Positions 6,310-63,935 of a stretch of 64,000 bases of DNA are shown in pieces (positions within the stretch are counted from its first letter, which is position 1; each line of letters opens with the position of its first letter). Origin of the DNA: Isosphaeraceae bacterium EP7. Its GTDB lineage: Bacteria > Planctomycetota > Planctomycetia > Isosphaerales > Isosphaeraceae. The notes under the pieces were generated by a model. That model made no database searches. It was not told the origin of the DNA and saw nothing but the letters and a program-made list of their open reading frames with translations. Where the stretch lies: NCBI GenBank assembly GCA_038400315.1, contig CP151667.1, positions 1,127,174 to 1,191,173 of the forward strand. Reading direction: 5' to 3'. The position numbers and the translations under genes were made by a program.

Positions 6310-6378
6310 TCGTCCCGAAAGAGTCCGTGTGTCGGGCGTGGTCGAATCAAAACAATCACTGATATTAGGGGATGAATC

Positions 6379-6459: not shown

Positions 6460-6472
6460 CCAGTTCCGAACC

Positions 6473-6603: not shown

Positions 6604-6626
6604 CGATTCGATACGCCGATTTTGCC

Positions 6627-8396: not shown

Positions 8397-8460
8397 CGCG
8401 TCTGGTGTCGTCTCGCCAATCCCGATCCAGGACCACGCAAATTCCGAGGGATCCAATCCG

Positions 8461-37689: not shown

Positions 37690-38688
37690 TCAGTCGCCCT
37701 CCACCACCTTACCCCCGAGGGCAACGGCCCTCGTCGCGATGAGAGCGATGATTGCAGTGCCGCAGAGCACAAAGGTGCCCGGCTCGGGGACGACGGTGAT
37801 GAAGCCGTGGGTGATTCCTCCCGCAGTATAGCTGCCGACGATCAGCCCACCGCCATTAATACCCTGCCCGGTCGAGGTGTCTGCGCCCGGGACGTTGAAG
37901 CCGACGAGCATGCCCGTCGGACCGCCGAGGAGGCCCGAGCTGATGAGGGTCGGCCCACTGCTGTTGAAGTAACCGATGAGCCCGCTGCCAATGACGTCGC
38001 CAGTGATATTGATCCCATTGATGAAAGAGGCAAGCGAACCCGGTGCGTCGAGGGTTTGGATCGTCCCATCAGGATCGCGCAAGTAGCCATGGAAGGAGAA
38101 ACCGTCGAAATAGGATCCGACGACCTGGCCGCTGGCATTCACCCCCTGAGCGAAGGTCCAAACAGCCCCGGGGACGTCGAAGGTGGTGAATGTGCCGTCA
38201 GCAGCCCGGATGAACGAGTGAAAGTCGAGGCCGGTGGAGAGTGAATAGGTGCCGGCGATCGAGCCGTCGCTGCTGATCCCGTTGCCGAAGGTCGATGTGC
38301 TCCCCGGGACGAAGAACGTGGCGAAGGACCCATCGGCCTCGCGTATGTAGGCGCCGGTCGCCGCGCCGTCGAAGTAGGAGCCGACGACCCTGCCCAAGTT
38401 GTCGATTCCGTTGGCATAGGTTGCCGTGCTATCCAGGATGGAATAGGCCGAGATGACGCCCGCTGTGCTGCGAGTGAAGGCGAAGGTCGATGATCCCACG
38501 ACGAACGACCCGGTTGAATCGCCCAGGTCATTGATCCCGTTAAGCGTCGTCGAGCTCGCGCCGGGGACGTCGACCGTGATGAAGGTTTCCGCCCTCGCCG
38601 TGGCGGGAATTGTGATGAGCGTCGTTGCGAGGAGTACGGCCGCCAGCAGATAGGTTGTGCAGGTCGCGAGCGATTTCATCCTAGACAT
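37690..38688 (-). CDS. PEP-CTERM protein with HAF repeats
   Basis: A 332-residue exported protein. The signal peptide runs through a hydrophobic stretch to A-T-A-R-A. About six HAF-type repeats follow ('F..VPGA..T...GIN..G.VVGSY.D'), such as 'GVNASGQVVGSYFDGFSFHGYLRD'. The C terminus is a sorting signal: V-P-E-P-G-T-F, a hydrophobic helix and a charged end. Known: PEP-CTERM proteins are processed by exosortase and end in the outer envelope or matrix. It is a likely surface or exopolysaccharide-associated protein, and no exosortase gene lies in this window. Confidence 0.9.
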   Translation of the reverse strand: MSRMKSLATCTTYLLAAVLLATTLITIPATARAETFITVDVPGASSTTLNGINDLGDSTGSFVVGSSTFAFTRSTAGVISAYSILDSTATYANGIDNLGRVVGSYFDGAATGAYIREADGSFATFFVPGSTSTFGNGISSDGSIAGTYSLSTGLDFHSFIRAADGTFTTFDVPGAVWTFAQGVNASGQVVGSYFDGFSFHGYLRDPDGTIQTLDAPGSLASFINGINITGDVIGSGLIGYFNSSGPTLISSGLLGGPTGMLVGFNVPGADTSTGQGINGGGLIVGSYTAGGITHGFITVVPEPGTFVLCGTAIIALIATRAVALGGKVVEGD

Positions 38689-39454: not shown

Positions 39455-42400
39455 ATGTCACACGACTTGCGAGCTCTGGGGAAGAATCGGGCCACGAGAC
39501 GGGATCGACGCGAGGGACGACGGGCGCGGCGGCCGGACTGGCTCTGGTCCACTCAGCCGGGCTTCGGGCTGGAAGACCGGACGTTGATGGCCACCCTGAT
39601 GGTCACGAGCCTTGGGGACAGCGGGACCGGGACCCTGCGCAACGAGATCGCCGCGGCGGCGGCGGGGGACACGATCACATTCAGCAACTCGTTGATCGGC
39701 CGGACGATCGTGCTCACGACCGGCGAACTCATCGTTTCCAAGAGTCTGAGTATCATCGGTCCCGGGTCGAATCGGCTGGCGATCAGCGCCAACTTGAACT
39801 CGCGGGTGATCGACATCACCGGGTCGGCGAGCACGGGCAACCTGCTGAACGTGACGATCGCGGGCCTGACGGTCACCCAGGGACGGGCGATCTCGACCTC
39901 TCCGCACGGCAGCCAGGGTGGCGGGATCTATGCGGGGCTTTCCAACCTGACGCTCAACGACGTGATCGTCAGCGCCAGCGAGGCGAAGGGCCTGCCGGGG
40001 GCGAGCGGCTCCAACGGCGCCGACGGGCTCTCGGCGCCGGCTAACCCGACCGGCAGCGGCGGAAACGGGGGAAACGGCGGTAACGGCTCGGCTGGTGGCA
40101 ACGGCGGCGCCGCGATGGGGGGCGGGGTTTACTTCGCTGGCGGCTCGCTGACGCTGTTGAGCAGCACAGTGACGGGCAATCAGGCGGTCGGCGGGCCGGC
40201 GGGCGACGGCGGCAGGGGGGGGAACGGTGGCAACGGCGGAGCGGGAACCCAGGCGATCACCACGGCCGCCATCGGCGGCAATGGCGGCCAGGGCGGCAAC
40301 GGTGGCCTCTCCGGCGCTGGCGGCGTCGGCGGCGATGCCATGGGCGGCGGGCTCTATTTCGTCGGCAGCAACCTGACAATCGCCGGCACCAGCATCTCCT
40401 CGAACAGGGCCATAGGCGGCCCCGGCGGGCTGGGCGGCAATGGTGGAAACGCGGGAAATGGTGGCGACGGGACGGTGTCCATCAGTCTGGCGAATCCGGT
40501 CAATGGTGCCAAGGGGGGGGGCGTCGGCGGCAATGGCGGCACCGGGAGGAGCGGGGCGAATGGTGGGGCGGGCGGATCGGCATTCGGCGGCGCCATTTAC
40601 GCCTCGTCGGGGGTTGTTTCCCTCAACGCCAGCGTGATCTCGACGAACCAGGCGATCGCTGCGCTGGGCGGGCTCGCCGGCAACGGCGGCAATGGCGGCA
40701 ACGGAGGGGGCGGCTCGCTGACCGCTTCCAACGGTGACGGCAGCAATGGCGGCAATGGCGGAGTCGGCGGCAACGGCGGTAATGGCGGCAATGGCGGCAG
40801 CGGCGGGTCTGCCTTCGGCGGCGGGATCTTCGTTGGCACGGGCTCTCCGACGATCACGAAGAGCCAGTTTTTCACGAACTCGGCGATCGCGGGGATTGGG
40901 AGCTCAGCAGGCGTGGGCGGGAACGGGGGCGCAGGTGGCTCGGGCACTCGGTTCAACGTGGGGATCCGCGTCGGATTCTCCGTCTTCGTGGGGGACTTCA
41001 CCGCGGGCATCAGCATCGAGACGCCGTTCGGGGACTTCAATCCTTCGTTCGACATCCCGATCAACGCCACGCTCTTCTCGACTTCGAGCGGCGATTCGAC
41101 CGACACCGGGGTCGGTGGCAATGCCGGCGTCGGGGGGACGGCCGGGGCAGGGGGCAACGGCGGCTTCGGCGGTAGTGCGTCGGGCGGCGCGGTCGCCGTT
41201 GTCGCGGTCGCGCCGGCGATAGCTGGCAGCACGTTCTTCGGCAACCAGGCCATCGCCGGGGCAGGTGGCGCTGGCGCGGCAGGCGGTAATGGTGGCTCGG
41301 GCGGGGTGGGCCTTCATTTCTCCTTCCTCGTCGATTTCCAATTCAATTTGCGCATCGACTTCGCGGTGACGTTCGTCATCGACCTCGATCCATTCTCGCT
41401 TCTAAGGACGCCTCAGGGCGCAACGACGCAATCGTCACTCGTCGCGGCTTCGGCTGCGGGGCTGGGCGTCATGTTCGCCCCGGGGCCGATCAAGCTGGCG
41501 GCCTTCTCGAGCAATGGAGGCAATGGGGCCGCCGGCGGCGCCGGGGGTCGCGGAGGCAGTGGAGGTCTGGGAGGCTCGGTCTCGGGCGGCTCGATCAGTG
41601 TCGGTCAGGGCGGCCTGTCGATGACCGATGACTCCGTGTCGTCGAGCACGGCGATCGCCGGGGCCGGGGGGAGTGCTGGTCCCGGCGGGTCGGGCGGCGC
41701 GGGCGGCTTCGGCAACTCGACAACGATCGGGGTCCAGATCGGTGGCGGGGTTAACAACCCCAGCAACACGAATCTGACGCTCAAGTTCGAGCTGCGGATT
41801 CCCGACTTACCGCCGATCGTGATCACCCCGAGTGCGGTCGTCTTGAACAGCGCCGTGAATACGTCGTCGACCTTCACGACGGCGCCTGGCGGGACGAGCG
41901 GCACGGGCGGGAATGGCGGTGACGGTGGCGACGCCTCGGGCGGCGGTGTTTACGTCGCATCGGGCAGGTCGAGAGGCGCCGTCAGCGTCTTGCGCACTCA
42001 GGTCTCGCAGGCCACGGCCACAGCCGGGTCGGGCGGCGGCGGCGGCGGCGGCGGTGCAGCGGCCAACGACGGGCTGTTCATCGACCCGACGCCAACCTTC
42101 GGGGTTCAGGCCGCCGGGGCCAGCGGGATCGGCGGCAGTGGCGGCGACGCCGCCGGCGGCGGCTTCTTCGTCGGTGGGCTTAATCCGGCGGGCTTCAGCG
42201 CGACGACGGTCTCGGCGTCGCAGGCCATCGGCGGGTCGGGCGGAACTGGGGGCGCGGGAGGGGCTGGAGGACTTGCTCTGAATGCCAGCCCCGCGGCGAG
42301 TGCCGGCGGAAGTGGCGGCTTCGCAGGGCAGGCGGACGGCGGTGGCATCTTCTACTCCGGTCCGCAGCTCTCGATCGTCGGCTCGACCCTCTCCGGCAAT

Positions 42401-45400
42401 GCGGCCACCGGCGGCAACGGCGGGGACGGGGGAGTCGGTGGATCCGGTGGGATCGTGGTCGTCGTCAGCGGGCTCAGCCAGACCGCCAACAACGGCTCCG
42501 GCGGGACCGGGCGAGCGGGTGGGTTCGGGCTCGGAGGCGGCCTCTATAATAACGCGACCGTTGCCGTCATCGACAACACCGTCGTGGACGGCAACTCCGC
42601 CACCGGCGGCAGGGGGGGGGCAGGCGGCGGGGGCGGCTCATTCAGCCTTTCGACCGTCTCGGGCACGCCCGTCACACTCCCCGCGGGTTCCGGGGGGAGC
42701 GCCGGAGCGAGCGGCGCCGGTGGCGACGGCCGAGGCGGCGGAATCTACACCACCTCGGGGCTTGAGCAAGAGCAGGGTCGGGCGCTCACCTTCAACTTGC
42801 CCGTCTCGATTATCAACAACTCGGCCACTGGCGGGGCCGGCGGAGCGGGCGGTTCGGGCGGTGCGTTGAATATTAAGGTGAATGCCGGCGCGGCGACCGG
42901 GACGAATGGTGGCGCAGGCGGTCAGGGCGGGGCAGGCCTGGGTGGCGGGCTCTACCTTCCTGATACCGACGTCACGTTCTCGACCTCAACCACCTCTCCA
43001 GTGACCTCACAGGTCACGACACCGATCGTCTTGACGCTCACCGGGAACAAGGCCACCGGCGGTGCCGGCGGCGCGGGGGGCTCGGCCAGCTTCGTCGGGG
43101 GCGTGGTGGTCGCCTCCACGAGCAACGCCCTTGGCGCCACGGGAGGCGCGGGCGGTGCTGGTGGCGTTGGACAGGGAGGCGGCATCTGGGATGCGATCGA
43201 CGAGTTCAGCATCCCTTCATTTGCCGTGATCAAAAATAACTCGGCCACCGGCGGGGCCGGCGGCGGAGGGGGCCTCGGCGGCATTATCAGCAGCGTCTCG
43301 CTGAGCACCGCCAATGTGACGCCGGGGCTGCTAGCCACCGGCGGAAATGGCGGCGCCGGGGGCCAGGGCGGGGCGGGCCAGGGCGGGGCAATCTTCAACC
43401 TCGGAGCGGGCCTGCAGATCCTGGCTGGAAGCGGTCGGACGGGCAACTCCGCCACCGGCGGCGCGGGGGGCGCGGGCGGTGCGGGCAGCCTGATCGGCAG
43501 CCTCATCGCCACACCGCTGCTCACGGCCCTCGGGGGCAATGGCGGAAAAGGCGGGGATGGCGGCGACGGCCAGGGCGGGTTCCTGTTTAACGTGGGGGTG
43601 GGCCTCGTCGTCGATCGTAATGAGCTGACCGGAAATGCGGCGACCGGCGGAGCCGGCGGGGGTGGCGGCCTCGGCAGTTTCGTCGGCGGCATCATCCTCA
43701 CCCCATTCAGCACCGTACTCGGCGGGCTCGGAGGCAACGGCGGTGCCGGCGGCGATGGGCAGGGCGGTGCGATCTTCAACTCGGGCAGTCGTGCCGTGAT
43801 CAGCGCCAGCACGCTGACGAACAACCTTGCGAGCGGCGGAGCCGGTGGTGGCGGCGGCGTTGGCGGTGGCGGAGGTCTGATCAACCTCGGGACGTTGGGG
43901 ATTGGCGCCTCGGGCGCGATCCTCGGCTCAGCAACCGGCGGGGCCGCCGGCAACGGCGGTGCCGGCGGCGACGGGCAGGGGGGCGCGGTTTACAACTCGG
44001 GCACAGGCTTCTTGCTGAGCCTCGACCTGATGACGGGCAATCGGGCGACCGGCGGTGCCGGCGGCGCAGGGGGAACGGGCGGCTCGGGCGGTACGGTGAG
44101 CGTCACCACGCAGGTCGGTAACGCCAGCGGCGGCAGTGCGGGCGGCGGCCTCGGCGGCGCAGGCGGCTCGGGCGGTAACGGACGTGGCGGTGCCCTGTTC
44201 AACACAGGCAGCTCGGCCTTCGTCCTGCTCACGCCCATGAATAATAACGTGGCAACCGGCGGTGTGGGGGGCGCCGGGGGCCTTGGAGGCACGGGCGGCA
44301 CCGTCTCCATCACCGCGATCCGCGGCAACGCAGTCGGCGGTTCGTCCGACGGCGGCAACGGTGGCAGCGGCGGGGTCGGCGGTGCCGGACAGGGAGGTGC
44401 CATCTTCAATACGGCCTCTGGCACCGGATTCATGTATGTCATCGCGTCGCCCGCGTCTGGATTCCCATCCCCGGGCAGCTTGGGGACGACCGGGGCGCAG
44501 CTCAGTCCGTCCAACCTTGTCTTCCTGGCCGGCAATTCCGCCATCGGCGGAGCTGGTGGCGTCGGCGGAGCTGGCGGGAGTGGCGGATTACTCACCGTCC
44601 AGTCCTTCACAGGGACGATCACGCGGGGGCACACGAACGGCGGTGCAGGTGGAAACGGCGGTGGCGGTGGGGCCGGGCAGGGGGGGGCAATCTACAACTC
44701 GGCCTCTTCGTTCACGGTTTCGGCGTTCACACCGTCCGCGGACTCGTCGGCTGTCCCTCCGGGAAGCCTCGGATCGACGATCAACCTCAGCCTCTTGAAC
44801 GGCAATTCGGCCATCGGCGGCGCCGGTGCTCTGGGTGGGGCGGGGGGCGCCGACGGGAGCCTTAGCTTCCTGGGAACCGAGGCCAGCGGGGCCTTAGGTG
44901 GGGCTGGGGGCAACGGCGGCGCGGGTGGCGCGGCCAACGGTGGGGCGATCGCCAACACCGGCAGCTCGTTCTCGGTGCTCGGCTTCAGCCTCCTGACAAG
45001 CAGCGCCGGGATTCTCTCGGGCAACGCGCTGCTGTTGCTGGAAAATCTCGCCAACGGCGCATTCCTGAACATTCAGTACAACGTGCTGAATGACAACTCC
45101 GCCCTCGGCGGCGTCGGCGGCGCAGGCGGGCCCGGCGGCGGCAATGGTGGGGTGACACTCTCCGGCGGGAACGCCAACGGCCATAGCGGCGGCAATGGCG
45201 GCAACGGCGGAGCCGGCGGTGCAGCCACCGGCGGGGCCGTTGACAATCGTGGCGCCGGATTCACGTTCGCCGCCTTCAGCACCCTCAGCCTCAATTCCGG
45301 ACGCCTTCAGCTCAAGGCTGATGGCGGCACCGACACTGTGGCCGAGAACTTGCTGTCGTTCCTCACCCTCGGTCTGCGAGATTTCTCGGGCAATAAGGCC

Positions 45401-48400
45401 ACCGGCGGGGCGGGTGGTGCCGGCGGCGCAGGGGCCGGTAACGGCGGCCTGACGGCGAACATCGGCAATGCCGATGGCGGCGTGGGCGGAGACGGGGGCA
45501 ACGGAGGCAATGGAGGCAGTGCGGCGGGGGGCGCGATCTGGAACTCCACAGGAGGTTTCCTCGTCTCGGTCTTCAGCACGATCTCGGATGGAACCTCGCA
45601 GGGCCAGAGCACCCCGGCCGCTATCCCGCTGCTCGACATCTTCGCCGTGAGCATCAACGTCACCTCCATGTCCGACAACTCCGCCAGCGGAGGAGCGGGC
45701 GGTGCGGGGGGAACCGGCGGAGGCAATGGCGGGCTCGCGGTCGTTGGCCGTGCCCGCGGCGGCCTTGGCGGCGATGGTGGCAACGGTGGAAACGGCGGCC
45801 AGGCACGCGGCGGTGCGATCGAGAATACGGGCGACCGCTTCCAGTCGTACGCCTTCAGCGCGGTCAATCCTCAGGTGGCCGGGTCGCCCGCGGCGACGAA
45901 GATCTTCCTCCATTTCCCGACGATCAACCTTCGCGAGCTTTCGGGCAACACCGCCAACGGCGGTGCGGGGGGGATCGGCGGCGCAGGGGGCGGCAACGGC
46001 GGAACCTATCTGACGACCGTGGGGGGTGCCCCGGTGGGCCTGCCGGTCAACCTGGAAACACCCGGCGGTCTCGGGGGCAACGGAGGTAACGGGGGTAACG
46101 GCGGCGCGGCGTATGGCGGTGCCGTTGACAACTCAGGAGACGGCTTCCTGATCGCCGACTTCAGCACCGTGAGGACCTTCAGCTCGGCTGGTTCGTCCTC
46201 CCCCATCGGGCCCGAGATTTTTGTCGACACCCTCAACATCCAGCTCACCCTGCTCTCGGACAACTCGGCCAACGGCGGGGCGGGCGGTAAGGGAGGCAAC
46301 GGAGGGGGCAACGCAGGGGCCAGCCTCGGGACGGCAAACGCCGATGGCGGGGTCGGAGGCGACGGTGGCAATGGGGGCAGCGGCGGCGGGGCTTTCGGCG
46401 GTGCCATCAACAACGCCGGCGACGGCCTCATCGTGGCGACCTTCAGTGCCCTGGCCGTTTCTCCCGCCGCAGGGCCAGGACAGGGGATTTCCCTGGTCAA
46501 CGGCAATGCGACGCTCCGCATTCTCTCCGGCGACCGCGCCAATGGCGGCGCCGGTGGCATGGGCGGCGACGGCGGCGGTAACGCCGGCATCGGAGACGCC
46601 GACGGCGGGATCGGCGGCGATGGCGGCGATGGCGGCAACGGCGGAGAAGCACGCGGCGGCGCCATCGAGAACAACGGCCAAAGCCGCAACGATGGCCAGC
46701 GCGAAACCACGGCCGACGGGGTCGTCATCGCCTCGTTCAGCTCCGTTGTCCTCGTCGTCTCCGACGGCCTGGTCGTCGCCGGTAAGGTGGACGGCACGCT
46801 GAACACGCCCTTCTTCAACGTCACGGCCAACTCGTTGAATCTCAACATCACCAACCTGGTGAACGACAGCGCCAACGGCGGCGCCGGAGGAGCCGGCGGC
46901 CTGGGCGGCGGCAATGGCGGCCAGAACTTCGGCCTGGGGCAGGTGCTCGGCGGGACCGGCGGTTCCGGGGGAGCTGGAGGCAACGGCGGCGCCGCATTCG
47001 GCGGAGCCATCGATAACACCGGCAACGGGTTCGTCGTCGCGACCTTCAGCACGCTCACCAATGCCGTGCCGACCGAATACATCGGCGTGGCAAATGTCCT
47101 CCCTCCCTCGATTAACCAGAGGGTGAACCTGACGGTCAACCTCGTCCAGCTCACCGATGACTCCGCCAACGGCGGGAAGGGGGGCGCTGGAGGGCTCGGC
47201 GGCGGCAACGGGGGGTTCACCCTCGGTGGCAATGCCAACGGAGGCGCGGGCGGTGCCGGCGGCGACGGCGGCGACGGCGGTAATGGGCAGGGCGGTGCCA
47301 TCAACAATATCCCCTCGATTGATACCACGCCCCTGGCGCTCGTCGTCGGAGACGTCATCACCGCGTCCGCCAGCGGGAACCCGGTCAACCCGTTCTATCC
47401 CAAGGTCTTCAACATCAACGCCAAGTTCGACTCGCTTTCACGCGACAAGGCCACGGGAGGCAACGGGGGACTGGGCGGCAATGGCGGCGGCAACGGAGGG
47501 GTCACCTTCGGGGGCAACGCCAACGGATCCCTGGGGGGCAACGGAGGCAACGGCGGTGACGGCGGATCGGCACTCGGAGGCGCGATCGCCAACTCTGCGG
47601 CCCGATTCCTCCTGCCGGCGTACTACACCCTGACCGGCGACAGTGCCACGGCCGGCAACGGCGCCAACGGCGGCAATGCAGGGGGCAACGGTGCGCCAAC
47701 GCCCAACGGAGGGAATAACACCCCGGGAATCGGCGGCAACGGCGGCAGCGGCGGCAATGGCGGGAGCGCGCAAGGCGGGGCCCTCTACAACCAGGGTGCC
47801 AACTTCACCGTCGGGACCAAGACCAACTTCACCGATGACAAGGCGACCGGCGGAAACGGAGGCGCAGGCGGTAACGGCGGGATCGTCGCCTTCCGGACGA
47901 GCAGCACAGGGGCCGGCGGCGCCGGCGGCGATGGCGGCTTCGCGGTCGGCGGGGCCATCGCCAACTTCGGCGACGGCTTCACCCTCGTCGGGCCGCACGC
48001 CTTCAACTCCGACACGGCCAGCGGCGGCAACGGCGGCGCGGGGGGCAACAGCGGTCTCGCGCCGAACTACATGGCCAATGGTGGGAACGGCGGCAACGGC
48101 GGGGGCGCCTCTGGAGGCGCGATCATCAACACCGGCCTGTCCTTCTCCGCCTCCAACGTCAGCTTCTTCCTCGATTCGGCCACCGGAGGCAACGCTGGGG
48201 CCGGGGGCAAGGGGAGCGGCGCGGGGGTCGGCGGCAATGGGGGCAACGGCGGCGACGCCCTCGGAGGCGCCATCGCCAACGCGGGATCGATGACGCTCTC
48301 CACCGGCTCCATCTCCTTCACGAGCGCCACAGGCGGAAGCGGCGGAAACGGCTGGGCGGGGGGCAACGGCGGGACCGCATCCGGCGGCGGGATCTATTCC

Positions 48401-49180
48401 GTCAGCATCCGCGAGCGCGGGGGCATCACCGTCAGCAAGTTCTCCGTCAACTACAACACGGCCAAGGGGGGGACAGGCGGCAACGGGTCGATCCTCTCCG
48501 GCGGCAACGGCGGCAGCGGCATCGGCGGCGGCATCACCATCCAGTCGGGCACCGGCTTGGTCTCCGACACCACGCTGAACAACAACCAAGCCCTCGGCGC
48601 CGCGGGAGGTTCCGGAGGCGCGGGCTACGCCGGAGGGGCGGGCGGTTCGGGCATCGGCGGGGCAATCGCATCGGGGGGGACCGTCTCCCTGACGAACATC
48701 GCCATCGGCTCGAACCGGGCCCAGGGGGCCAACGGCGGCAACACCGGCACAGGGGGCACCGGCGGAGCCGGAGGGAACGCACTGGGGGGTGGCCTGGCGG
48801 TCACCGCGGGCAAGGTCACCCTCACCGGCGGCAAGGTCACGTCCAACGTGGCACAGGCCGGCAACGGCGGCAGCTCCTCGTTCAAGGGGACCGGAGGTGC
48901 CGGCGGCAATGCCCTGGGAGGCGGCGTCTTCGTCGCCGACAACGCACTCCTTGACGCCATCGATACCGTCATCGGCGGCTTCTTCGCCGGTAACCAGGCC
49001 ATCGGTGGGTCGGGCGGCTCGGGCGGCCTATTCGGGACCAACGGCGCGAACGGTGGGGGGGTCGGAGGCGGGCTTTATGTGACCGGGGCCGGATCACGGC
49101 GGAAGAACCTGGTCGTCACGTTTAATTCGGCCAGCACGGCCGACAACGATATCCACGGGACGCTGGGCAATTTGCCCTGA
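39455..49180 (+). CDS. Giant glycine-rich repeat surface protein (3241 residues)
   Basis: The N terminus is Arg-rich and contains L-E-D-R-T-L-M (39-45), the planctomycete extracellular-protein motif, then a beta-helix start typical of pectate-lyase-like or polymorphic-membrane-protein folds ('LGDSGTGTLRNEI', 'IVLTTGELIVSKSLSIIGPG'). From ~residue 180 to the end, units of ~60-110 residues alternate GN-x-A-x-G-G-A-G-G, GGNGGxGG loops, G-G-A-I-x-N and short F-S-x-L strands. This combines Chlamydia PMP-like GGAI/FxxN motifs with mycobacterial PGRS-like glycine loops. I noticed no cysteines. There is no clear C-terminal anchor. ATG at 39455 has AGGAG upstream. Adhesion or a surface layer is inference. 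Confidence 0.85.
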   Translation: MSHDLRALGKNRATRRDRREGRRARRPDWLWSTQPGFGLEDRTLMATLMVTSLGDSGTGTLRNEIAAAAAGDTITFSNSLIGRTIVLTTGELIVSKSLSIIGPGSNRLAISANLNSRVIDITGSASTGNLLNVTIAGLTVTQGRAISTSPHGSQGGGIYAGLSNLTLNDVIVSASEAKGLPGASGSNGADGLSAPANPTGSGGNGGNGGNGSAGGNGGAAMGGGVYFAGGSLTLLSSTVTGNQAVGGPAGDGGRGGNGGNGGAGTQAITTAAIGGNGGQGGNGGLSGAGGVGGDAMGGGLYFVGSNLTIAGTSISSNRAIGGPGGLGGNGGNAGNGGDGTVSISLANPVNGAKGGGVGGNGGTGRSGANGGAGGSAFGGAIYASSGVVSLNASVISTNQAIAALGGLAGNGGNGGNGGGGSLTASNGDGSNGGNGGVGGNGGNGGNGGSGGSAFGGGIFVGTGSPTITKSQFFTNSAIAGIGSSAGVGGNGGAGGSGTRFNVGIRVGFSVFVGDFTAGISIETPFGDFNPSFDIPINATLFSTSSGDSTDTGVGGNAGVGGTAGAGGNGGFGGSASGGAVAVVAVAPAIAGSTFFGNQAIAGAGGAGAAGGNGGSGGVGLHFSFLVDFQFNLRIDFAVTFVIDLDPFSLLRTPQGATTQSSLVAASAAGLGVMFAPGPIKLAAFSSNGGNGAAGGAGGRGGSGGLGGSVSGGSISVGQGGLSMTDDSVSSSTAIAGAGGSAGPGGSGGAGGFGNSTTIGVQIGGGVNNPSNTNLTLKFELRIPDLPPIVITPSAVVLNSAVNTSSTFTTAPGGTSGTGGNGGDGGDASGGGVYVASGRSRGAVSVLRTQVSQATATAGSGGGGGGGGAAANDGLFIDPTPTFGVQAAGASGIGGSGGDAAGGGFFVGGLNPAGFSATTVSASQAIGGSGGTGGAGGAGGLALNASPAASAGGSGGFAGQADGGGIFYSGPQLSIVGSTLSGNAATGGNGGDGGVGGSGGIVVVVSGLSQTANNGSGGTGRAGGFGLGGGLYNNATVAVIDNTVVDGNSATGGRGGAGGGGGSFSLSTVSGTPVTLPAGSGGSAGASGAGGDGRGGGIYTTSGLEQEQGRALTFNLPVSIINNSATGGAGGAGGSGGALNIKVNAGAATGTNGGAGGQGGAGLGGGLYLPDTDVTFSTSTTSPVTSQVTTPIVLTLTGNKATGGAGGAGGSASFVGGVVVASTSNALGATGGAGGAGGVGQGGGIWDAIDEFSIPSFAVIKNNSATGGAGGGGGLGGIISSVSLSTANVTPGLLATGGNGGAGGQGGAGQGGAIFNLGAGLQILAGSGRTGNSATGGAGGAGGAGSLIGSLIATPLLTALGGNGGKGGDGGDGQGGFLFNVGVGLVVDRNELTGNAATGGAGGGGGLGSFVGGIILTPFSTVLGGLGGNGGAGGDGQGGAIFNSGSRAVISASTLTNNLASGGAGGGGGVGGGGGLINLGTLGIGASGAILGSATGGAAGNGGAGGDGQGGAVYNSGTGFLLSLDLMTGNRATGGAGGAGGTGGSGGTVSVTTQVGNASGGSAGGGLGGAGGSGGNGRGGALFNTGSSAFVLLTPMNNNVATGGVGGAGGLGGTGGTVSITAIRGNAVGGSSDGGNGGSGGVGGAGQGGAIFNTASGTGFMYVIASPASGFPSPGSLGTTGAQLSPSNLVFLAGNSAIGGAGGVGGAGGSGGLLTVQSFTGTITRGHTNGGAGGNGGGGGAGQGGAIYNSASSFTVSAFTPSADSSAVPPGSLGSTINLSLLNGNSAIGGAGALGGAGGADGSLSFLGTEASGALGGAGGNGGAGGAANGGAIANTGSSFSVLGFSLLTSSAGILSGNALLLLENLANGAFLNIQYNVLNDNSALGGVGGAGGPGGGNGGVTLSGGNANGHSGGNGGNGGAGGAATGGAVDNRGAGFTFAAFSTLSLNSGRLQLKADGGTDTVAENLLSFLTLGLRDFSGNKATGGAGGAGGAGAGNGGLTANIGNADGGVGGDGGNGGNGGSAAGGAIWNSTGGFLVSVFSTISDGTSQGQSTPAAIPLLDIFAVSINVTSMSDNSASGGAGGAGGTGGGNGGLAVVGRARGGLGGDGGNGGNGGQARGGAIENTGDRFQSYAFSAVNPQVAGSPAATKIFLHFPTINLRELSGNTANGGAGGIGGAGGGNGGTYLTTVGGAPVGLPVNLETPGGLGGNGGNGGNGGAAYGGAVDNSGDGFLIADFSTVRTFSSAGSSSPIGPEIFVDTLNIQLTLLSDNSANGGAGGKGGNGGGNAGASLGTANADGGVGGDGGNGGSGGGAFGGAINNAGDGLIVATFSALAVSPAAGPGQGISLVNGNATLRILSGDRANGGAGGMGGDGGGNAGIGDADGGIGGDGGDGGNGGEARGGAIENNGQSRNDGQRETTADGVVIASFSSVVLVVSDGLVVAGKVDGTLNTPFFNVTANSLNLNITNLVNDSANGGAGGAGGLGGGNGGQNFGLGQVLGGTGGSGGAGGNGGAAFGGAIDNTGNGFVVATFSTLTNAVPTEYIGVANVLPPSINQRVNLTVNLVQLTDDSANGGKGGAGGLGGGNGGFTLGGNANGGAGGAGGDGGDGGNGQGGAINNIPSIDTTPLALVVGDVITASASGNPVNPFYPKVFNINAKFDSLSRDKATGGNGGLGGNGGGNGGVTFGGNANGSLGGNGGNGGDGGSALGGAIANSAARFLLPAYYTLTGDSATAGNGANGGNAGGNGAPTPNGGNNTPGIGGNGGSGGNGGSAQGGALYNQGANFTVGTKTNFTDDKATGGNGGAGGNGGIVAFRTSSTGAGGAGGDGGFAVGGAIANFGDGFTLVGPHAFNSDTASGGNGGAGGNSGLAPNYMANGGNGGNGGGASGGAIINTGLSFSASNVSFFLDSATGGNAGAGGKGSGAGVGGNGGNGGDALGGAIANAGSMTLSTGSISFTSATGGSGGNGWAGGNGGTASGGGIYSVSIRERGGITVSKFSVNYNTAKGGTGGNGSILSGGNGGSGIGGGITIQSGTGLVSDTTLNNNQALGAAGGSGGAGYAGGAGGSGIGGAIASGGTVSLTNIAIGSNRAQGANGGNTGTGGTGGAGGNALGGGLAVTAGKVTLTGGKVTSNVAQAGNGGSSSFKGTGGAGGNALGGGVFVADNALLDAIDTVIGGFFAGNQAIGGSGGSGGLFGTNGANGGGVGGGLYVTGAGSRRKNLVVTFNSASTADNDIHGTLGNLP
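40000..49080 (+). repeat. Coding tandem repeats (GGC/AAC-rich) of the giant gene
   Basis: Degenerate in-frame repeats dominated by GGC-GGC-AAC-GGC codons encode the GGNGG loops; units are similar but not identical, and non-glycine inserts (for example 40945-41100, 41310-41500 and 41735-41880) interrupt them. On the other strand this composition creates many long Pro-rich frames that are not genes. Confidence 0.8.
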
Positions 49181-49196: not shown

Positions 49197-49231
49197 GTAC
49201 TGCCCCCCGCCACCCGGCCGGGGGGCAGTAC
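49197..49231 (+). terminator. Strong hairpin after the giant gene
   Basis: GTACTGCCCCCCG (49197-49209) and CGGGGGGCAGTAC (49219-49231) are a perfect 13-base-pair inverted repeat with a nine-base loop, 17 bases after the giant gene stop. No T run follows on the + strand, so it may end transcription without a U tract or protect the mRNA 3' end. Confidence 0.6.
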
Positions 49232-49411: not shown

Positions 49412-49782
49412 TTAATCAGGTTTCATGACGACGTCGAGTCTGCTCCCCCAGGCACGAAGTCGACCCGCGGGAGCCTGGAGCCTAGGCCCATGACGGTCAC
49501 CCTCCCGACTCGCATCGCCGCCACGGACGGGACGGCATTACCCGATCGGTTTCCGTCCGGCGTGGGCCGGGGCGATGCCCGCCTTTCCACTCGCAGGTCG
49601 CCGGCAGGGACCGACGGCCGGCCGACTCCGACACGCCCCTGACCAAAACGCTTGGAATGATTCTGATCCTGCCCGCATCTCATGCCGGGCGGCCGAGGTC
49701 GAGGCTCCGCGCCCCGACTCCGGCCATGCCGTCGAGATTCATCCCGAGACGAGTGGTCGGTCACCCCGGCCGCGACGTGCAG

Positions 49783-49790
49783 AAGGAGGG
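49783..49790 (+). promoter_or_regulatory. Ribosome binding site selecting a TTG start
   Basis: AAGGAGGG lies four bases before TTG (49795-49797), and the first synthase domain begins two to four residues later. Upstream in-frame ATGs at 49657 and 49726 lack such a site and would add ~46 or ~23 Arg/Pro-rich residues. Confidence 0.6.
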
Positions 49791-49794
49791 GACC

Positions 49795-52700
49795 TTGGGC
49801 GATCCGGCAGACTTCGACCTCATCGTGCTGACGCCCCCGGGCTCGCCCGATCCGTCGCTCGCCATCGCGGGGAGCCGGGCCGGCGCGATCGGCGTCCTCA
49901 ACCTGGAGTTCGCCGACGATCCCGACGCCGCCTTGGCGGCGCTCGCCCGACTCGGTCGCCATGGCCGCGGACGCATCGGCGTGCTCCTGGACGGGGCGGA
50001 CGAGATCTTGCTTGCCGCCGTCCTCGGCCTGGCGCCCCCCGGCCTGCACGCACTGCTGCTGGCCGGCACGCCCCCCGGTCGACTCCGCCGGGCGATCGGG
50101 CTCATCCATCAGGCCGGGCGGAAAGCTTACATCGTCGTTTTCGGGGTGGACGAGGCACAGGCGGCCGAGGCCGCAGGCGCCGACGCGTTGGTCGCCAAGG
50201 GGCATGAGGCGGGCGGATGGGTCGGCGAGGAGACCACCTTCGTCCTGCTCCAATCCCTGCTCTCACGCCCGACGATCCCCGTCTGGGCTCATGGGGGCGT
50301 GGGGCCCCGCACCGCGGCCGCCTGCCGGGCGGCGGGCGCCGCCGGTGCGGTGCTCGACAGCCAGCTCCTCCTGGCCCGCGAGTCGCCCCTGCCCGAGGCC
50401 GTCCGGGCGCGCATCGGGTCGATGGACGGCAGCGAGACGGCCTGCCTCGGATCGGGACTCGGGGCCGCCTTCCGCTCCTACTCTCGCCCCGATCTGGGTC
50501 CCGCCAACGACCTCAGGCGCCTCGAGGCCGAGGCTCTCGTCGCCGAACGGCCCCGCGAGGCCGTCCGCCTCGCCTGGCGAGAGGTGGTCACCCGTCAGGT
50601 TGACTGGCGACGAACGTCGACCTCGCTCCTCGCCATCGGTCAGGACGCCACATTCGCCGCGGGGCTTGCGTCTCGCTACAAGACCGTCGGCGGCATCGTC
50701 GATGCGATACGTCGGGCATCGGCCGAGTTCGGGGCCGCGACCGAGGGGAGCGGTCCACTGGCCGAAGGGTCGCCGCTGGCCCGCTCCCACGGCACCAGAT
50801 ACCCCATCGTGCAGGGCCCGATGACCCGGGTCAGCGACCGTGCGGAATTCGCCGCCGCGGTCGCCGAGTCGGGCGCCCTGCCCTTCCTGGCCTTGGCCTT
50901 GATGCGGGCCCCCGGGGCCAGGACGCTGCTCGAGGCCACCGGCCGGCTCCTGGGCAACAGGCCCTGGGGAGTGGGGGTCCTCGGATTCGTCCCGCCCGAG
51001 CTGCGCGCCGAGCAGCTCGAGGTCCTCCGCGCCTTCCGGCCTCCCTTCGCCCTGATCGCGGGGGGGCGGCCCGATCAGTCCCGGGTTCTGGAAGGCGATG
51101 GAATCGCTACATATTTGCATGTCCCGTCGCCGGGTCTGCTCCGGATGTTCCTCCAGGAGGGGGCCTCGAGGTTCGTGTTCGAAGGCCGCGAATGCGGCGG
51201 CCACGTCGGCCCGAGGACCAGCTTCGTGCTCTGGGAGAGCATGATCGAGGTCCTGCTGGCTCACCTGGACGCGACGCCCGCTGCCGACCCCACAGCCTGC
51301 CACGTCCTGTTTGCCGGCGGCGTGCATGACGGGCTCTCAGCGGCGATGGCGGCCGCGATGGCCGCGCCGCTGGTCGACCGAGGGGTCAAGATCGGCGTCC
51401 TGATGGGCACGGCCTACCTGTTCACCGACGAGGCGGTGCGCACCGGCGCGATCGTCGACCGCTTTCAGAAGGCGGCCGTCGCGTGCGGCCGGACCGTACT
51501 CCTGGAGAGCGGGCCGGGCCACGCGACCCGCTGCGTCCCCTCTCCGTTCGTGGACGACTTCGCGGGGGAGAAACGCCGCCTGATCCGCGAGGCACTCCCC
51601 TCCGACGAGCTGCGGCACCGCCTGGAAGTGCTGAATATCGGCCGTCTGCGGGTCGCTTCCAAGGGGCTCGACCGCGACACGAGCGACCGGGGAGCTCCGG
51701 GCGAGTCGAAGCTCGTCGACGTGTCCGACGACGACCAGTGGTCGCGTGGGATGTATATGATCGGCCAGATTGCCTCCCTCAGAGCCGCGGTTTGCTCGAT
51801 GGATGAACTCCACCGCGACGTCTCCGAGGGGGGGGCACGGATCCTCGGGTCTGCGGGCGCGAACGCGGTCGATCTAGGTCCGCAGTCGCCGCCTCCTTGC
51901 GCCGTGGCCATCGTCGGCATGGCATGCATCCTCCCGGGCTCGCCCGACCTGAAATCGTACTGGTCGAATATCCTGGGCAAGGTCGACGCGATCACCGAGG
52001 TCCCCGCCGACCGCTGGGACTGGAGGCAGTACTACGACGCCGACCGATCGGCGCCCGACAAGATCTACTCACGCTGGGGCGGGTTCATCGACGAGGTTGC
52101 ATTTGATCCGGCGACCTACGGGATCCCTCCCAGCTCGCTCGCCTCGATCGAGCCGTTCCAGCTCCTGGCCCTGGCCGTGGTCCGGTCGGCTCTGGACGAC
52201 GCCGGTTACCTGGACCGGCCGTTCTGCCGCGAGCGGACATCGGTGATCCTCGGGGCGGGTGGTGGCGGCGCCGACCTGACGGCCGGATATATGTTCCGAT
52301 CCAGCCTGCCCGCCTTCTTCGGCGGCGACGCGTCGGCCGTCACCGAGAACCTGGGCAGTCACCTCCCGGGTTGGACCGAGGACTCATTCCCTGGCCTGCT
52401 CATGAACGTGGCCGCGGGCCGGGTGGCGAATCGTTTCGACCTCGGCGGGGTGAATTACACCGTCGACGCCGCCTGCGCCTCGTCGCTGGCCGCCGTCTAT
52501 CTGGCGGTGCGCGACCTCGAGGCGCGCACCAGCGACGTGGTGGTGGTGGGCGGGATCGACGCCATTCAGAACCCGTTTTCATTCCTCTGCTTCAGCAAAA
52601 CCCAGGCACTCTCGCCGACCGGCCGATGCCGGACATTCGACGCGCAAGGCGACGGCATCGCGATCAGCGAGGGGTTTGCCGCAGTCATCCTCAAACGCCT

Positions 52701-55700
52701 CGACGACGCCGAGCGTGATGGTGACCAGATCTACGGCGTGATCCGGGGCGTGGGCGGGTCCAGCGACGGCCGCGACCGGAGCTTGACCGCCCCCAGGCCC
52801 GATGGGCAAGTCCGGGCGCTCCGCCGGGCCTATGCCCAGGCCGGGATCCCGCCCGCGTCGGTCCAGCTCGTCGAGGCCCACGGGACCGGCACAGTGGCAG
52901 GAGACCAGGCCGAGGTTCAGGCCCTCTCCGCGTTCTTCGGCAAGGCGGGTGGGAGTCGTCAGGGGTGCGCCGTCGGATCGGTCAAATCGATGATCGGCCA
53001 CACCAAGGCCACCGCCGGAGTCGCCGGCCTGATCAAGACGGCTCTGGCGCTGCATCACAAGGTCCTCCCGCCCACGCTCAACGTGACCTGCCCCAACCCG
53101 AGGTCGAACTTCCCCGAGAGCCCATTCTACGTGAACACCGAAGCACGCCCCTGGATCGACCCCGGAGGCCATCCCCGGCGGGCCGGCGTCAGCGCCTTCG
53201 GCTTCGGCGGCACGAACTTTCACATCGCCATGGAGGAGTACTCCGGCCACTACCTGGATGGGAACGCCGCTCCGGTCGACGTCTGGCCCGCAGAGCTTCT
53301 TGTCTGGCGAGGCGACTCGCGACGGGAGATCCTGGATTCCATCAAGGACCTGACAGGGCGCCTCGAGAAGGGAGCAAGGCCCGCGCTTGTCGACCTGGCG
53401 TTCACCGTGGCCCGGGCGGCGAACGCGGCCCAGGCGGGCCCGTTCAGCCTCGCCATCGTCGCGTCGTCGATCGACGAGCTCATCGCGAGGCTGCACCTCG
53501 CCGAGAGGGCCCTGGGGGACGGACCCGACCGATCACACCCGTCACGGGGGGTCTACTTCTCGGGGAAGCCCCTTTCTCAAGAGGGCATGGTCGCCTTCCT
53601 CTTCCCGGGGCAAGGATCGCAATATGTCGACATGGCCCGCGATGTGACGCTGGCCTTCGAGGCGGTCAGGCGCTGCTTCGATCGCGCCGACCGCGTACTC
53701 GCCGGCCAGCTCGATCGTCCGCTGAGTCGTTTGATCTTCCCGCCGCCGGTTTTCACCCCAGAGGATGAGCTCCGCCTGAAGGCCGAGCTGACCGAGACGA
53801 GCGTCGCCCAGCCCGCCCTTGGGGTGACCGATATTGCCTACTTAAGCTTGTTGCGTGAGTTCGGCGTCGAGCCCCAGATGGCCGCAGGTCACAGCTTCGG
53901 CGAATTCGTCGCCCTCCACGCCGCGGGTTGCTATGGCGAGGAGGAACTGCTTCATCTTGCCGCGGCGCGCGGGCGGTTCGTCAAGGAAGAGACGACCGAG
54001 GAGAGTGGCGCAATGGCCGCGGTCGACGCCCCGCCCGAGGCCTTGATGGAGTTGCTCTCCGACCCAGGTCTGACGCTGGCTAACCTCAACGCTCCCCTCC
54101 AGACGGTCCTCTCGGGATCGAAGAGCCGCATCGATGCCGCGGTCGCCTGGTGCGAGGGGCGAGAGATCCGGGCGCGGCTCCTCCCGGTCTCATGTGCCTT
54201 CCACTCCCCCCTGGTCGCGCCCGCGCAATCGAGGCTCGCCGAGTTCCTCCGGGAGATCCCGATCGCACCGCCCCGGATCCCGGTCTACTCGAACACGACG
54301 GCGGGCGTTTACCCGCAGGATCCAGGGGCCATCGCCGGCCTGCTTGGCGAGCACCTGGTCCGCCCTGTCGAGTTCGTCCGCGAGATCGAGGCCATGTACG
54401 AGGCTGGTGCCAGGATCTTCGTCGAGGTTGGCCCGCGAAACGTCCTGAGCGGACTCGTCGGCCGGATCCTCGGCGATCGCCCTCATCTCTGCTCACCCTT
54501 GGACGTCCCCGGCCGATCCGGGGTGCCACAACTCCTTCACGCGCTTGCCTCGCTCGTGGCGGAGGGGGTGCCGGTCCGACTCGGACGGCTCTTCGAAGGC
54601 CGGACGGCCCGGGCTCTGCACCTCGGGTCGCTCGACCAGGAGACGGGCCGGCCCAAGCTCACCCCGACAACCTGGATGGTCAGCGGTGGGAAGGCGAGAC
54701 CGGCGAATCCCAGGGCGGGTACGGCCGAACCGCCCACCTTGCCGCTGGCCATCCGGGTGGCGGACGGCCACCAGGCTACGCCCAGCCCCACCCGAGAAAA
54801 CCCGACGATCGTCGGCGAATCCTCTCCCCGTTCGGACCGAAATGGCGACGGAACCGGCAACGGCCACCCGTCGCCCGGAAAATCCGGATCCGCCGGCCGA
54901 AACGGTCACGTGGCCGCGACGCCGACGCCCGTCCCCCATCCGCACCAGGCCTTGTCCGCCAGAAACGGAGGGAGCATGACTCCAACGACCCGACCAAGTC
55001 CCAGGATCTCCGGGGAGGCGATCCCGCAGAACCGACTCGCCCCTTATCTGGCAAGTCCGCCTTTAGCGCCTACCCCGGGGCCGGCCGCGAACGGGCAGGG
55101 GACAACGGACATCGTTCGGCAATTTCAACAGGTGATGATGCGTTTCCTCCAGACCCAGGAAACGGTCATGCACGAGATTCTCACCTTCTTGGGAACCGGG
55201 GCAGCGGCCCTTCCCACCCCGAATGTCGACCATCGACCGGCGGGGGCGGGCGCCGACGGCAACGGATTCGCCCTCGATGCTCCTCCCGCGATGGAGCCCG
55301 TCCACGCTCCGCAACCGCAACCTCAATCGCACGGCGGGGCCTCTGCTCCGGCCGCACCCGCCGACATTCAGGCGACCTCACCGGTCGTGGCCGTGGCCCG
55401 CGTCCCTGTCCCTCCTCGGGAGGAGGCACCCGCACCTCCCCCACTCGTGCCGGGCCCGAAGGCGTATATGCCGCCCAGCCGGGCTCAGCTCACGCAGGAT
55501 CTGCTCGCGGTCGTCAGCGAGCGTACCGGCTATCCCGAGGAGATGCTCCTGCTGGAGTCGGACATGGAGGCCGAACTGGGGATCGACTCGATCAAACGAG
55601 TCGAGATCGCCGGCACGATCCTCCGCGCACTGAAGCTGCCAGCCGGGCAGTCTCCCGACGTCGAGAAGCTGACCGCCAGCCGGACCCTTCGTCAGGTGGT

Positions 55701-58371: not shown

Positions 58372-61300
58372 CCGCCCCCCACGGATTTCCGAATGGCGAA
58401 GACAGGTCGGTCACCTACCGTCCCGGTAACCCACCAGCGACGGGCCAGCGCCCGCGTCGCAAAGGGGTCGCCATCATCGGGATGTCGTGCCTATTCCCCG
58501 GCGCCCCCGACGTCGACGCTTACTGGCGGAACATCCTCGGCAAGGTCGACTCGGTCACGGCGCCGCCTCCCGAGGCTCGCGAGACGGCCCTGTATTACGA
58601 GCCCAATTCGGCCGAGCCCGATCGTGTCTACTGCCAGCGCGGTGGCTACCTCGGGGCGCTGTCGACTTTCGATCCCCTGGCCTTCGGCGTCCCGCCGGTC
58701 TCCGTCGGCGGCGAGCCCGATCAGTGGCTGTCGCTCAGGCTCGCCCGCGAGGCGATGGCGGATGCGGGCTGCCTTGATCTCCCCGAATCGGTCCGGCGGC
58801 GGACCTCGGTGATCCTCGGCAAGGGGACGTACCTCAACGCCGGCAATGCGATGGCCATCCAGCATGGGCTGGTCGTCAGCCAGACCCTTGAGATCCTCGG
58901 CGCACTCCACCCCGAATACACCGGCGCGGAGATCGAGGCGATTCGACGGGAGTTGAAGCGGGCCCTGCCGCCGATCGGGCCCGAGACGGTTGCAGGGCTC
59001 ATCCCCAATATTATCGTCGGCCGGATCGCCAATCGGCTCGACCTGATGGGCCCTAGCTATACGGTCGACGCCGCCTGTGCCTCGTCGCTGATCGCCGTCC
59101 AGCAGGCGATGCGCGACCTCGCCAGCGGCGACTGCGACCTGGCAATCGCCGGTGGCTCGCAGATCTGGATCCCGATGCCGACTCTCAGCATCTTCTGCCA
59201 GCTCGGGGCACTCTCCCGCCGCCAGCAGATCCGACCCTTCGACAAGGACGCCGATGGAACGCTGCTCGGCGAGGGGATCGGCATGGTCGTCCTGAAGCGG
59301 ATCGAGGACGCCGAGCGTGACGGCGACCGGATCTATGCCGTCGTCCGTGGGGTCGGGGTCGCCAGCGACGGCCGGGGCATGAGCGTCATGGCGCCCCGCG
59401 TGCAGGGCGAGGAACTCGCGCTGAGACGTGCGTATGAGGAGGCCGGCGTCTCGCCCGATTCGGTCGGGCTGATCGAGGCCCACGGGACTGGCACGCCGGT
59501 CGGAGACGCCACCGAGGTGCAGGCCCTGACCAGGGTCTTCGGCCAACGGATCGGCGAGATCCCCCGTTGCGCCATCGGGTCGGTCAAGTCGATGATCAGC
59601 CACACAATCCCCGCGGCCGGGGTCGCCGGGATCATCAAGGTGGCCCTCTCGCTCTACCACAAGGTCCTGCCGCCGACCCTGAACTGCGAGGCGCCCAACC
59701 CCAGGCTCGAGCTGGAAAAGACCCCCTTCTACATCAACACCGAGGCTCGACCCTGGGCACACGGCGGCCGGGAACCCAGGCGGGCCGGGGTCAACTCGTT
59801 CGGCTTCGGCGGGATCAATGCCCACGCCATCCTGGAGGAACACGCACCCGCAGGCCGGGTGGCCTTGCAGGCGGGCTTTGAGGACGACACGCGGCGAGCG
59901 GAGGCCCGCGCCGACCATCGGCCGGAGTGGGAATGCGAGGTCTGTATCCTCGGGGCCGAATCGCCGGCGAAGCTCCTGGCAGAGGCCCGCCGTCTCGTCG
60001 CGGCGCTCGATGCGGTCGATTCGGATGAGCCCATCCGCATCAAGGATCTTGCGGCGACCTTGAATCGAGATCTTATGACTTCGGGATCCAGCTCCCCCTT
60101 CCGGCTGGCCGTCGTGGCGGCGTCGGCCGCCGACCTGAAGGCCAAGCTGGGGAAGGCCGCGAAGAAGCTCGGCTCGCCGGGATGCCTCCAGATTCGGGAC
60201 GTCTCGGGGATTTATTACGCCGCCGAGCCGCTCGGGCGGTCGGGCAAGCTGGCGATCCTCTTCCCCGGAGAGGGTGCTCAATATCCCAATATGCTCGCCG
60301 ATCTCTGCCTGCACTTCCCCGAAGTGCAGGCGTGCTTCGATGAGATTGACCAAATCTATTATGATCACCCGCGCGGATATGTGCCGAGTGACCACATCTT
60401 CCCGAGATCATCGCCGATCCCGAGCGATGGCGGTGGGGTCGCCGAACGCCTCTGGCAGATTGCTGGCGCGGTCGAGGCGGTCCTGACGGCCAATCGGGCC
60501 ATGCTCACGCTGATGGAACGGCTCGGACTGCGGCCCGACGTGATCCTCGGCCACAGCACCGGGGAGTACTCGGCCATCCGTGCGTCCGGGATCTTCGACC
60601 CGGCGAGAGATAAGTTCTCCGAGCTGATCCTCACGTTCTTCCGGAATTACGAGGTCGCATCCGGGCCGGAACTCTCGACAGCCGTGTTGCTTGCGGTGGG
60701 TGCCGGGAGGCGGGAGGTCGAAGCAGTGGCCCGCGAGACCGGCGGCGAGATTTATGTGGCCATGGACAACTGCCCTCACCAGGCGGTCCTGGTGGGAGAG
60801 GCGGGAGCCGCGGCGCGAGCGGAGGAGATTCTGCGACGTGACGGGCTGATCTTTGAACGACTCAAATTTGACCGGGCGTATCACACGCCCCTCTTCATCC
60901 CGTATGCGGCGCACCTCAAACAGATCTTCCAGGACGCCCCCATAGTCGCTCCGACGACCCCGATTTACTCGTGCACATCGGTATCTCCCTATCCTGACGA
61001 CCCCGCCGCGATTCGCAAGCTGATGCTGGATCACTGGCTGGAGCCGGTCGAGTTCCGGCGGACCGTCGAGAGGCTGCACGACGACGGGGTGAGACTCTTC
61101 GTCGAGGTCGGGCCGAGGGGCAACCTCACGGCGTTTGTCGAGGACATCCTCCGCGACAAGACCTTCTGCGCCATCCCTTCCAACGTCCAGCGCAGGTCGG
61201 GCATCGCCCAGCTCAATCACCTCGTCGCCATCCTCACCGTCCATGGGATCGACCTCGACCTGATGGCCCTCTCCCGGGATCGGTGCACTCGACGGATCGA

Positions 61301-63626: not shown

Positions 63627-63935
63627 ATGTTGGCGAATCATCAGCAAATCCAGGATGAACTGCTCGAGTTGATGACCCAGCTGGCGGGCGACTGGGAGTA
63701 CGACGGGGAGGTGAACGCGGGCACGCGACTGCTGCGCGACCTGGCCATGGAGTCGCTCGGCCTGGTGGTCCTCGGGACTTCAATCCAGGAGCGGTACGGA
63801 CGGCTGCCGTTCTCGGAATTCCTCGCCGAAGTCGGCCAGCGTCCCCTCGAGCAACGAGATGTAACCATCGGCGAACTCGTCGATTTCGTCTGCCAGCATC
63901 GCCGTCATGTGGCGGGCGAGGGGGTGCCGCGATGA
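63627..63935 (+). CDS. Free-standing acyl carrier protein
   Basis: A 102-residue protein whose helix-2 start D-L-A-M-E-S43-L matches the carrier-protein D-S-L site with Glu before Ser; S43 would carry phosphopantetheine. The rest fits a four-helix ACP ('LGTSIQERYGRLPFSEFL', 'TIGELVDFV'). The ATG has GGAGG upstream. It lies 42 bases after the synthase with fused PPTase, which may activate it, and overlaps the next gene by ATGA, so one mRNA is likely. Confidence 0.85.
   Translation: MLANHQQIQDELLELMTQLAGDWEYDGEVNAGTRLLRDLAMESLGLVVLGTSIQERYGRLPFSEFLAEVGQRPLEQRDVTIGELVDFVCQHRRHVAGEGVPR

Follow-up and report, generated by a model that had tools for sequence, protein, structure and literature searches.

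In a 64,000-nucleotide stretch of the Isosphaeraceae bacterium EP7 genome (the window), a single open frame of 3241 residues appears to encode an exported structural protein of the envelope, in which a beta-helix mast would carry arms of PGII helices and which would be linked to the glycolipid of the adjoining gene cluster. We put the probability of this reading at roughly 0.6 and refer to the gene as the blade. The gene, its repeat grammar, its conservation pattern, the synteny and the co-occurrence are observed, whereas export, the glycolipid product and the scaffold role are inferred. As a prediction the fold is well supported; the function could be wrong in kind, which is less likely for the fold. 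A sequence-only reading had missed two things: each arm is an expanded loop, always placed at one position of the coil, and the gene goes together with genes for lipid synthesis. This linkage is new here, and with the predicted fold it suggests a surface part of a kind little described before.

One open frame with one repeat grammar

The blade gene runs without interruption from an ATG to a stop codon at 49178-49180, as a reading made from the sequence before any database search had proposed, and its product contains 30.7% glycine, 12.1% alanine, 8.1% asparagine and no cysteine. Its parts are as follows.

39455..49180, + strand: armed beta-helix (‘blade’) gene, one open frame of 3241 aa, with orthologues
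39455..39589, + strand: basic N-terminal leader with LEDR-TLM (residues 39-45), common to many beta-helix proteins of the family
39590..39916, + strand: N-terminal beta-helix cap, the ‘GTLR..I..A..GDTI.F’ region, widespread in the family
39917..49063, + strand: about 40 coils, most with a GGx-leg hairpin between N-x-A and GG[AG][IVLF] (motif parse and models)
40817..41938, + strand: three coils, residues 455-828, with non-glycine insertions of 45-70 residues in the tips of their arms
43175..46114, + strand: segment modelled first, residues 1241-2220, predicted beta-helix with glycine arms
43382..43762, + strand: two coils with strongly hydrophobic (by GRAVY) and conserved arm tips (GSLIGSLL.TPFVVA, GSLVASLISIPFSSG)
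44393..47575, + strand: coils with an additional rung insert of 20-35 residues (residues 1647-2707), the pLDDT of many inserts being 30-55
47291..49177, + strand: segment modelled second, residues 2613-3241, in which the arms shorten toward the C-terminus

The LEDR motif occupies residues 39-42 (nt 39569-39580), and behind it, again as first read, lies a long repeat of about 41 coils from residue 155 onward (a regular expression gave 44 unit starts, four of them inside arms, and one at residue 155 that it missed was added by reading). All units follow one grammar: in order, a strand GG[AG][IVL]xN, a further strand in which F or V is frequent, [LFV]xxNxA, a GGx run, a tip of about 7-25 residues, another GGx run, xAx and the next GG[AG][IVL]. 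Because arm, tip and inserts vary, unit length ranges from about 40 to 130 residues and the period is not constant. Many arm tips have a GNA-type turn in common, and the x positions of the legs hold a mixture of N, A, S, D, V and L. The F-S-x-L element that the sequence-only reading had listed as part of the unit occurs in a subset of later units (as ‘AAFSTL’).

Motif counts lay far above those of 1000 composition-keeping shuffles of the blade. GGxGG occurred 192 times (shuffled 19.9 ± 4.4, maximum 37), runs of at least three GGx triplets 61 times (2.3, maximum 8), N-x-A followed by GGxGGxGG 20 times (0.1, maximum 2), GGxGG...xGG[AG][IVLF]xN 21 times (0.0, maximum 1) and GG[AG][IVLF] 49 times (25.9 ± 4.5, maximum 42). 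The Pmp motif FxxN showed no enrichment (11 versus 9.2 shuffled).

Inspection by eye found no classical signal peptide in the blade, so the case for export is drawn from its family kinship, and the leader with LEDR-TLM is probably a sorting signal. Homologous N-termini (query, blade residues 1-154) are carried by 39 of 45 family genomes, and a strict pattern scan found an LEDR-type motif in 12 of 20 N-terminal loci.

Predicted fold: a beta-helix mast with PGII arms

Two separate, non-overlapping segments of the blade were modelled with AlphaFold2, using only the window and orthologue sequences as input (4-5 sequences), and both were predicted to be right-handed parallel beta-helices. For residues 1241-2220 the mean pLDDT was 72.2 and the pTM 0.76, and 251 of the 980 residues scored at least 90; arms were mostly at 88-96, the weak parts were rung inserts and some tips, and the other four models had mean pLDDT values of 64, 56, 49 and 42. 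Residues 2613-3241 reached a mean pLDDT of 81.7 and a pTM of 0.85 (five models, 74-82), with arms mostly at 88-97 and low confidence in the last ~18 residues. Our judgement of the fold rests on VIA-align Z rather than on Foldseek E-values, which were weak (none below 0.001 in the PDB and one, 3.3e-4, in a viral library). VIA-align matched the first segment to the right-handed beta-helix 7chu (Z 20.8, 267 residues, rmsd 3.0) and the second to the right-handed beta-helix 7akv (Z 27.6, 287 residues, rmsd 2.5), consistent with a parallel three-sheet coil fold. The beta-helix rungs and the glycine-rich helices at their side, both anticipated from the letters, are thus predicted in the two modelled segments, with the legs among the best-scored parts.

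The legs of the first model matched 7jjv, a springtail antifreeze protein built as a nine-helix polyproline-II bundle, with a Z of 14.5 and an rmsd of 1.8 Å over 125 residues at 42% identity. Because this match spans model residues 26-309 and crosses several consecutive coils, the legs of neighbouring coils appear to pack together in the model, and GGx hairpins in a PGII sandwich are present both by sequence and in the predicted fold. For the second model, 7jjv (weakly) and 2pne appeared as Foldseek matches only, and neither was among the 50 VIA-align matches listed.

A beta-helix mast with PGII arms is the likely architecture of the blade. About 41 coils would form a right-handed mast, and from most of them a hairpin of two left-handed PGII legs would exit between N-x-A and GG[AG][IVL]; the legs of neighbouring coils would lie side by side as a two-layer glycine sheet, yielding a blade, not a thread. 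A beta-helix rises about 0.48 nm (4.8 Å) per coil and a PGII triplet is about 0.93 nm long, so that ~41 coils would give a mast of ~20 nm and five triplets would give arms of ~4.5 nm. At this size the molecule would be a blade rather than the ‘very long fibre’ that had been imagined. PGII helices are likewise spaced about 4.8 Å apart, and this agreement with the coil rise is a likely reason why the architecture would work, the mast setting the register of the PGII sheet.

Orthologues conserve leg glycines and arm lengths

Four blade orthologues were found among the 45 family genomes, all of them in one other genus, and collinear with the blade; their identity to it is 58-62% across the long aligned stretches and 52% in a single N-terminal one. 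In two orthologues, the fourfold sites of conserved residues had diverged by about 0.50-0.57, equally in arms and core. Four collinear orthologues at this silent divergence show that the blade frame is a true gene rather than a chance reading frame. One copy, in genome G031 (L045), changes frame some four or five times within sequence of ~82% identity, which reflects either assembly error or gene decay; decay would argue that the blade is dispensable. A phylum-wide search of 392 genomes matched four, the blade's own included, and the other three matches, short and with E of about 2e-4 to 9e-4, were dropped as relatives. A plasmid search found no blade.

Leg glycines were 96% identical (805/836) versus 35% for leg x positions (126/364) in the first segment, and 97% (276/285) versus 42% (57/135) in the second, the number of leg cells being reduced by a parse that left 4 of 11 C-terminal units without an assigned first leg and one first-segment unit short. 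Across ~60% identity the arms were nearly free of indels in both segments: in the first segment one tip has a 3-residue gap and, where a tip meets a leg, there is a single insertion of 2 residues. Indels between species, the larger ones included, fall mostly in or around the coils at 40817..41938, in the N-terminal third of the blade. Among 12 first-segment tips, only two long ones and one of 7 residues are strongly hydrophobic in all five orthologues, and the tips at 43382..43762 have a GRAVY of 1.3-1.6 in all five, versus 0.09 for the whole blade. A hydrophobic or lipid-binding edge along all tips was considered and dropped, most tips being near neutral.

Relatives grade from armless to armed

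On sequence grounds the blade is best understood as belonging, with arms added, to a beta-helix family of this planctomycete family, its arm a lengthened loop, because its relatives grade upward from armless proteins and the armless ones match or approach the Beta_helix and PMP models. Throughout the series L028-L042 of LEDR-type beta-helix proteins, loops at one coil position are absent, short or longer. L039 and L033, proteins of a few hundred residues, have no arms or nearly none; L030, L038 and L040 carry glycine loops of 15-25 residues at the same place in the coil as the blade arms; L041 has longer glycine loops in some coils; and the arms of the blade itself measure 35-60 residues. Armless L033 matches Pfam Beta_helix (E 2e-10), L039 scores 19.3 bits against the Chlamydia PMP repeat (PF02415), below the curated cut-off of 20.6, and short-armed L030 has no Pfam match. 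At ten other loci with long N-terminal-type proteins, GGxGG density was 0.0-1.6 per 100 aa versus 5.9 in the blade, in a comparison that includes some ORFs ending at a locus or contig edge and several without an LEDR-type motif. A same-genus genome that lacks the blade holds a beta-helix-like frame of 1421 aa (L104:1399-5661), armless and with 26 GG[AG][IVLF] motifs.

The whole blade gave no match in Pfam, NCBIfam or PDB sequences, blade pieces gave nothing above cut-off in Pfam, NCBIfam or PHROGs (sub-threshold NCBIfam noise), and a PDB profile search returned 7kmv alone (E 0.67). The likeness to both chlamydial Pmp and mycobacterial PE_PGRS proteins that the sequence-only reading had noted holds at the level of motifs, in the excess of GG[AG][IVLF] and the GGx hairpins, but does not extend to membership of either family. 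No Pfam family of any kind, and so no autotransporter barrel, matched the final 305 residues at E ≤ 1; the C-terminus was modelled as beta-helix coils; and Pfam PF02415 found no Pmp repeat in the blade at E ≤ 1, nor is FxxN enriched; no Pfam or NCBIfam PE model matched residues 1-297, and the GRPLI motif occurs 0 times. No beta-helix with glycine arms in planctomycetes appeared among the freely accessible papers listed in literature searches.

The blade travels with a lipid-synthase cluster

In all five genomes that have it, the blade adjoins a PUFA-synthase-type lipid/glycosyltransferase cluster. Its neighbours in the window are listed below.

37690..38688, − strand: divergent exported protein with a PEP-CTERM-like C-terminus and repeats (by eye), upstream neighbour
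49197..49231, + strand: G+C-rich inverted repeat with 13 bp arms, directly past the blade stop
49657..58371, + strand: PKS1, with NMO-type (enoyl reductase-like), KS, AT, ACP, KR and DH domains, PfaD/PfaA-like (Pfam, synteny)
58392..63584, + strand: PKS2, with KS, AT, DH and phosphopantetheinyl transferase; start uncertain, the frame opening at 58212
63627..63935, + strand: 102-aa ACP-like protein, conserved in the cluster

The 102-aa protein has no Pfam match; a ..MESLGLVVLG.. motif is our ground for reading it as an acyl carrier protein. Past the window (L078:6106-16550 region) the cluster continues with a phosphodiesterase-family protein, an alpha/beta hydrolase, an SDR, two GT1, two methyltransferases and a 722-aa protein without a Pfam match. 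The order blade, PKS1, PKS2, ACP-like protein, phosphodiesterase, hydrolase, SDR, GT1 is identical in five of five genomes, the other four having one GT1 region and no methyltransferase matches in the cluster, and the divergent exported protein lies beside the blade in all four of them as well (5/5). A strong G+C-rich hairpin without a T run separates the blade from PKS1 in all five loci, so the two may or may not share a transcript; a terminator scan gave 0 hits versus 0.9 expected, too few to inform. Elsewhere in the window, 6372-8396, 8329-10599 and 11431-12579 resemble, by eye, a Kdp potassium transport and sensor set.

PKS1 at 67-69% identity occurs, among the 45 family genomes, only in the five with the blade (other homologues, 41-54%), and two same-genus genomes have neither the blade nor this PKS1 subtype at the thresholds used; four of the five blade genomes belong to one genus, so the co-occurrence is partly shared ancestry. 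Near other PKS1 homologues, no beta-helix ORF, PDE or GT1 was found in the 8 loci examined of 28, the one flagged beta-helix ORF being the PKS itself; ACP-like and hydrolase relatives were present in one of these 8 loci and a weak SDR match in another.

The blade gene is inherited together with this PUFA-synthase-type cluster, whose product we infer to be a glycolipid. Most likely the protein would sit at the surface as part of a scaffold or coat that either serves the cluster glycolipid or is anchored by it; such a lipid-linked surface role is tentative, and we hold it at somewhat below even odds. A more specific proposal, that a beta-solenoid ruler assembling a PGII sheet of ~75-80 helices arose by stepwise loop lengthening and forms an outer coat with a dedicated PUFA-synthase-type glycolipid, is doubtful, about one chance in four.

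Alternative explanations

Beta-helix surface proteins are often adhesins, and the arms might present loops at their tips for binding to surfaces or partners, a building principle that, in the available text of its report, has been solved for the long-tail-fibre adhesin gp38 of phage S16 (PMC6851490). The tips of the blade, however, are not hypervariable: in the first segment their non-glycine residues reach 47% identity versus 51% for rungs, with few indels, and 30% versus 48% in the second, where they are gap-free. A GNA-type turn recurring in so many tips also argues against binding loops of this kind, and an adhesin would leave the link to the lipid cluster unexplained; we consider it unlikely. 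That link, together with the two conserved and very hydrophobic tips, would fit a free-standing sail whose tips insert into the glycolipid layer while the molecule floats, as PE_PGRS proteins have been proposed to do in the mycomembrane, and PGRS domains have been modelled as a two-layer PGII sandwich (‘sail’) with a hydrophobic edge (PMC9436101, accessible portion). Yet most blade tips are near neutral, and blade arm length hardly changes, whereas PGRS domains tolerate large indels and PE_PGRS33 shows many in-frame ones (PMC10216338, accessible portion), which makes a floating sail less probable than an adhesin, at around one chance in eight.

Two further explanations concern the arms themselves. 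They might be flexible spacers that arose through repeat slippage and form no lattice: sequence rich in glycine is commonly described as disordered, AlphaFold2 can over-order repeats, and the lower-ranked models of the first segment are of low confidence. Against this, leg glycines are kept and x positions left free at equal silent divergence, arm lengths are nearly fixed across ~60% identity, and both models place the legs among their most confident regions, so we regard disorder as improbable. The flat PGII face might instead bind ice or water, as in the springtail antifreeze protein, which is the best solved match of the arms; but PGII packing alone explains that match, and the outward x positions, mixed in residue type and 35-42% identical, would be unlike a conserved ice-binding face. 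An ice-binding or desiccation protein is the least probable of these, a few chances in a hundred.

If the preferred reading of an envelope protein with mast and arms is true, PGII sheets can grow large when every hairpin is suspended from a coil of a beta-helix, and the relatives preserve intermediate steps of arm lengthening. PGII sheets have so far been seen in a few small solved proteins and in PE_PGRS models, and the blade would offer an environmental, non-mycobacterial system for testing the PGRS structural model. It would also tie a giant planctomycete surface gene to a concrete lipid pathway, many such giants being without an assigned role, and giant genes as such are common in planctomycetes (PMC5352709, in the part available). 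Were the ruler proposal also correct, solenoid rulers would be a class of bacterial envelope proteins that parallels, independently, the way mycobacteria pair PGRS proteins with complex lipids.

Comparison with known systems

The nearest solved example of a mast with PGII arms, by analogy, is S16 gp38, in which the turns of a small beta-helix extend into a polyglycine sandwich whose binding tips vary (PMC6851490). The likeness of the predicted blade, whose turns would similarly be drawn into a PGII lattice beside the helix, is to the published description in its accessible part; gp38 was absent among the Foldseek and VIA-align matches listed, which is uninformative. In that description gp38 has five rings, ten glycine motifs and hypervariable tips, whereas the blade has ~41 coils with about two legs per coil, and its first-segment tips are conserved about as well as the rungs. 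Unlike phage gp38, the blade is a bacterial gene, and it has no PHROGs match.

With PE_PGRS proteins, as the available portions of those reports describe them, the blade shares GGx triplets in hairpins, a predicted PGII sandwich and legs of three to five triplets. It differs in having no PE domain, no GRPLI and apparently no ESX-5 context, in legs that would be anchored to a beta-helix mast, and in arm lengths that are nearly fixed where those of PE_PGRS are polymorphic. Like chlamydial Pmp proteins it has beta-helix rungs with GGA[ILV] followed by an N-x-A step, and an armless relative comes near the PMP cut-off; unlike them it has no barrel, no enrichment of FxxN and a glycine arm in most coils. 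The springtail and snow flea antifreeze proteins (7jjv, 2pne) are likewise PGII/PPII helix bundles, and 7jjv fits the arms at 1.8 Å, but they are small, stand alone and have no beta-helix, which the blade is predicted to have.

The neighbouring genes, with ER, KS, AT, ACP, KR, DH, PPTase and GT functions, resemble PUFA-synthase and heterocyst-glycolipid synthases (PMC3098273, PMC11804610). In the available text of these sources, Shulse and Allen describe PUFA-synthase-type secondary lipid synthases in planctomycetes with uncharacterised products (PMC3098273), heterocyte glycolipid islands carry their own glycosyltransferase (PMC11804610), and no surface protein is named in either kind of cluster, whereas here the blade adjoins one.
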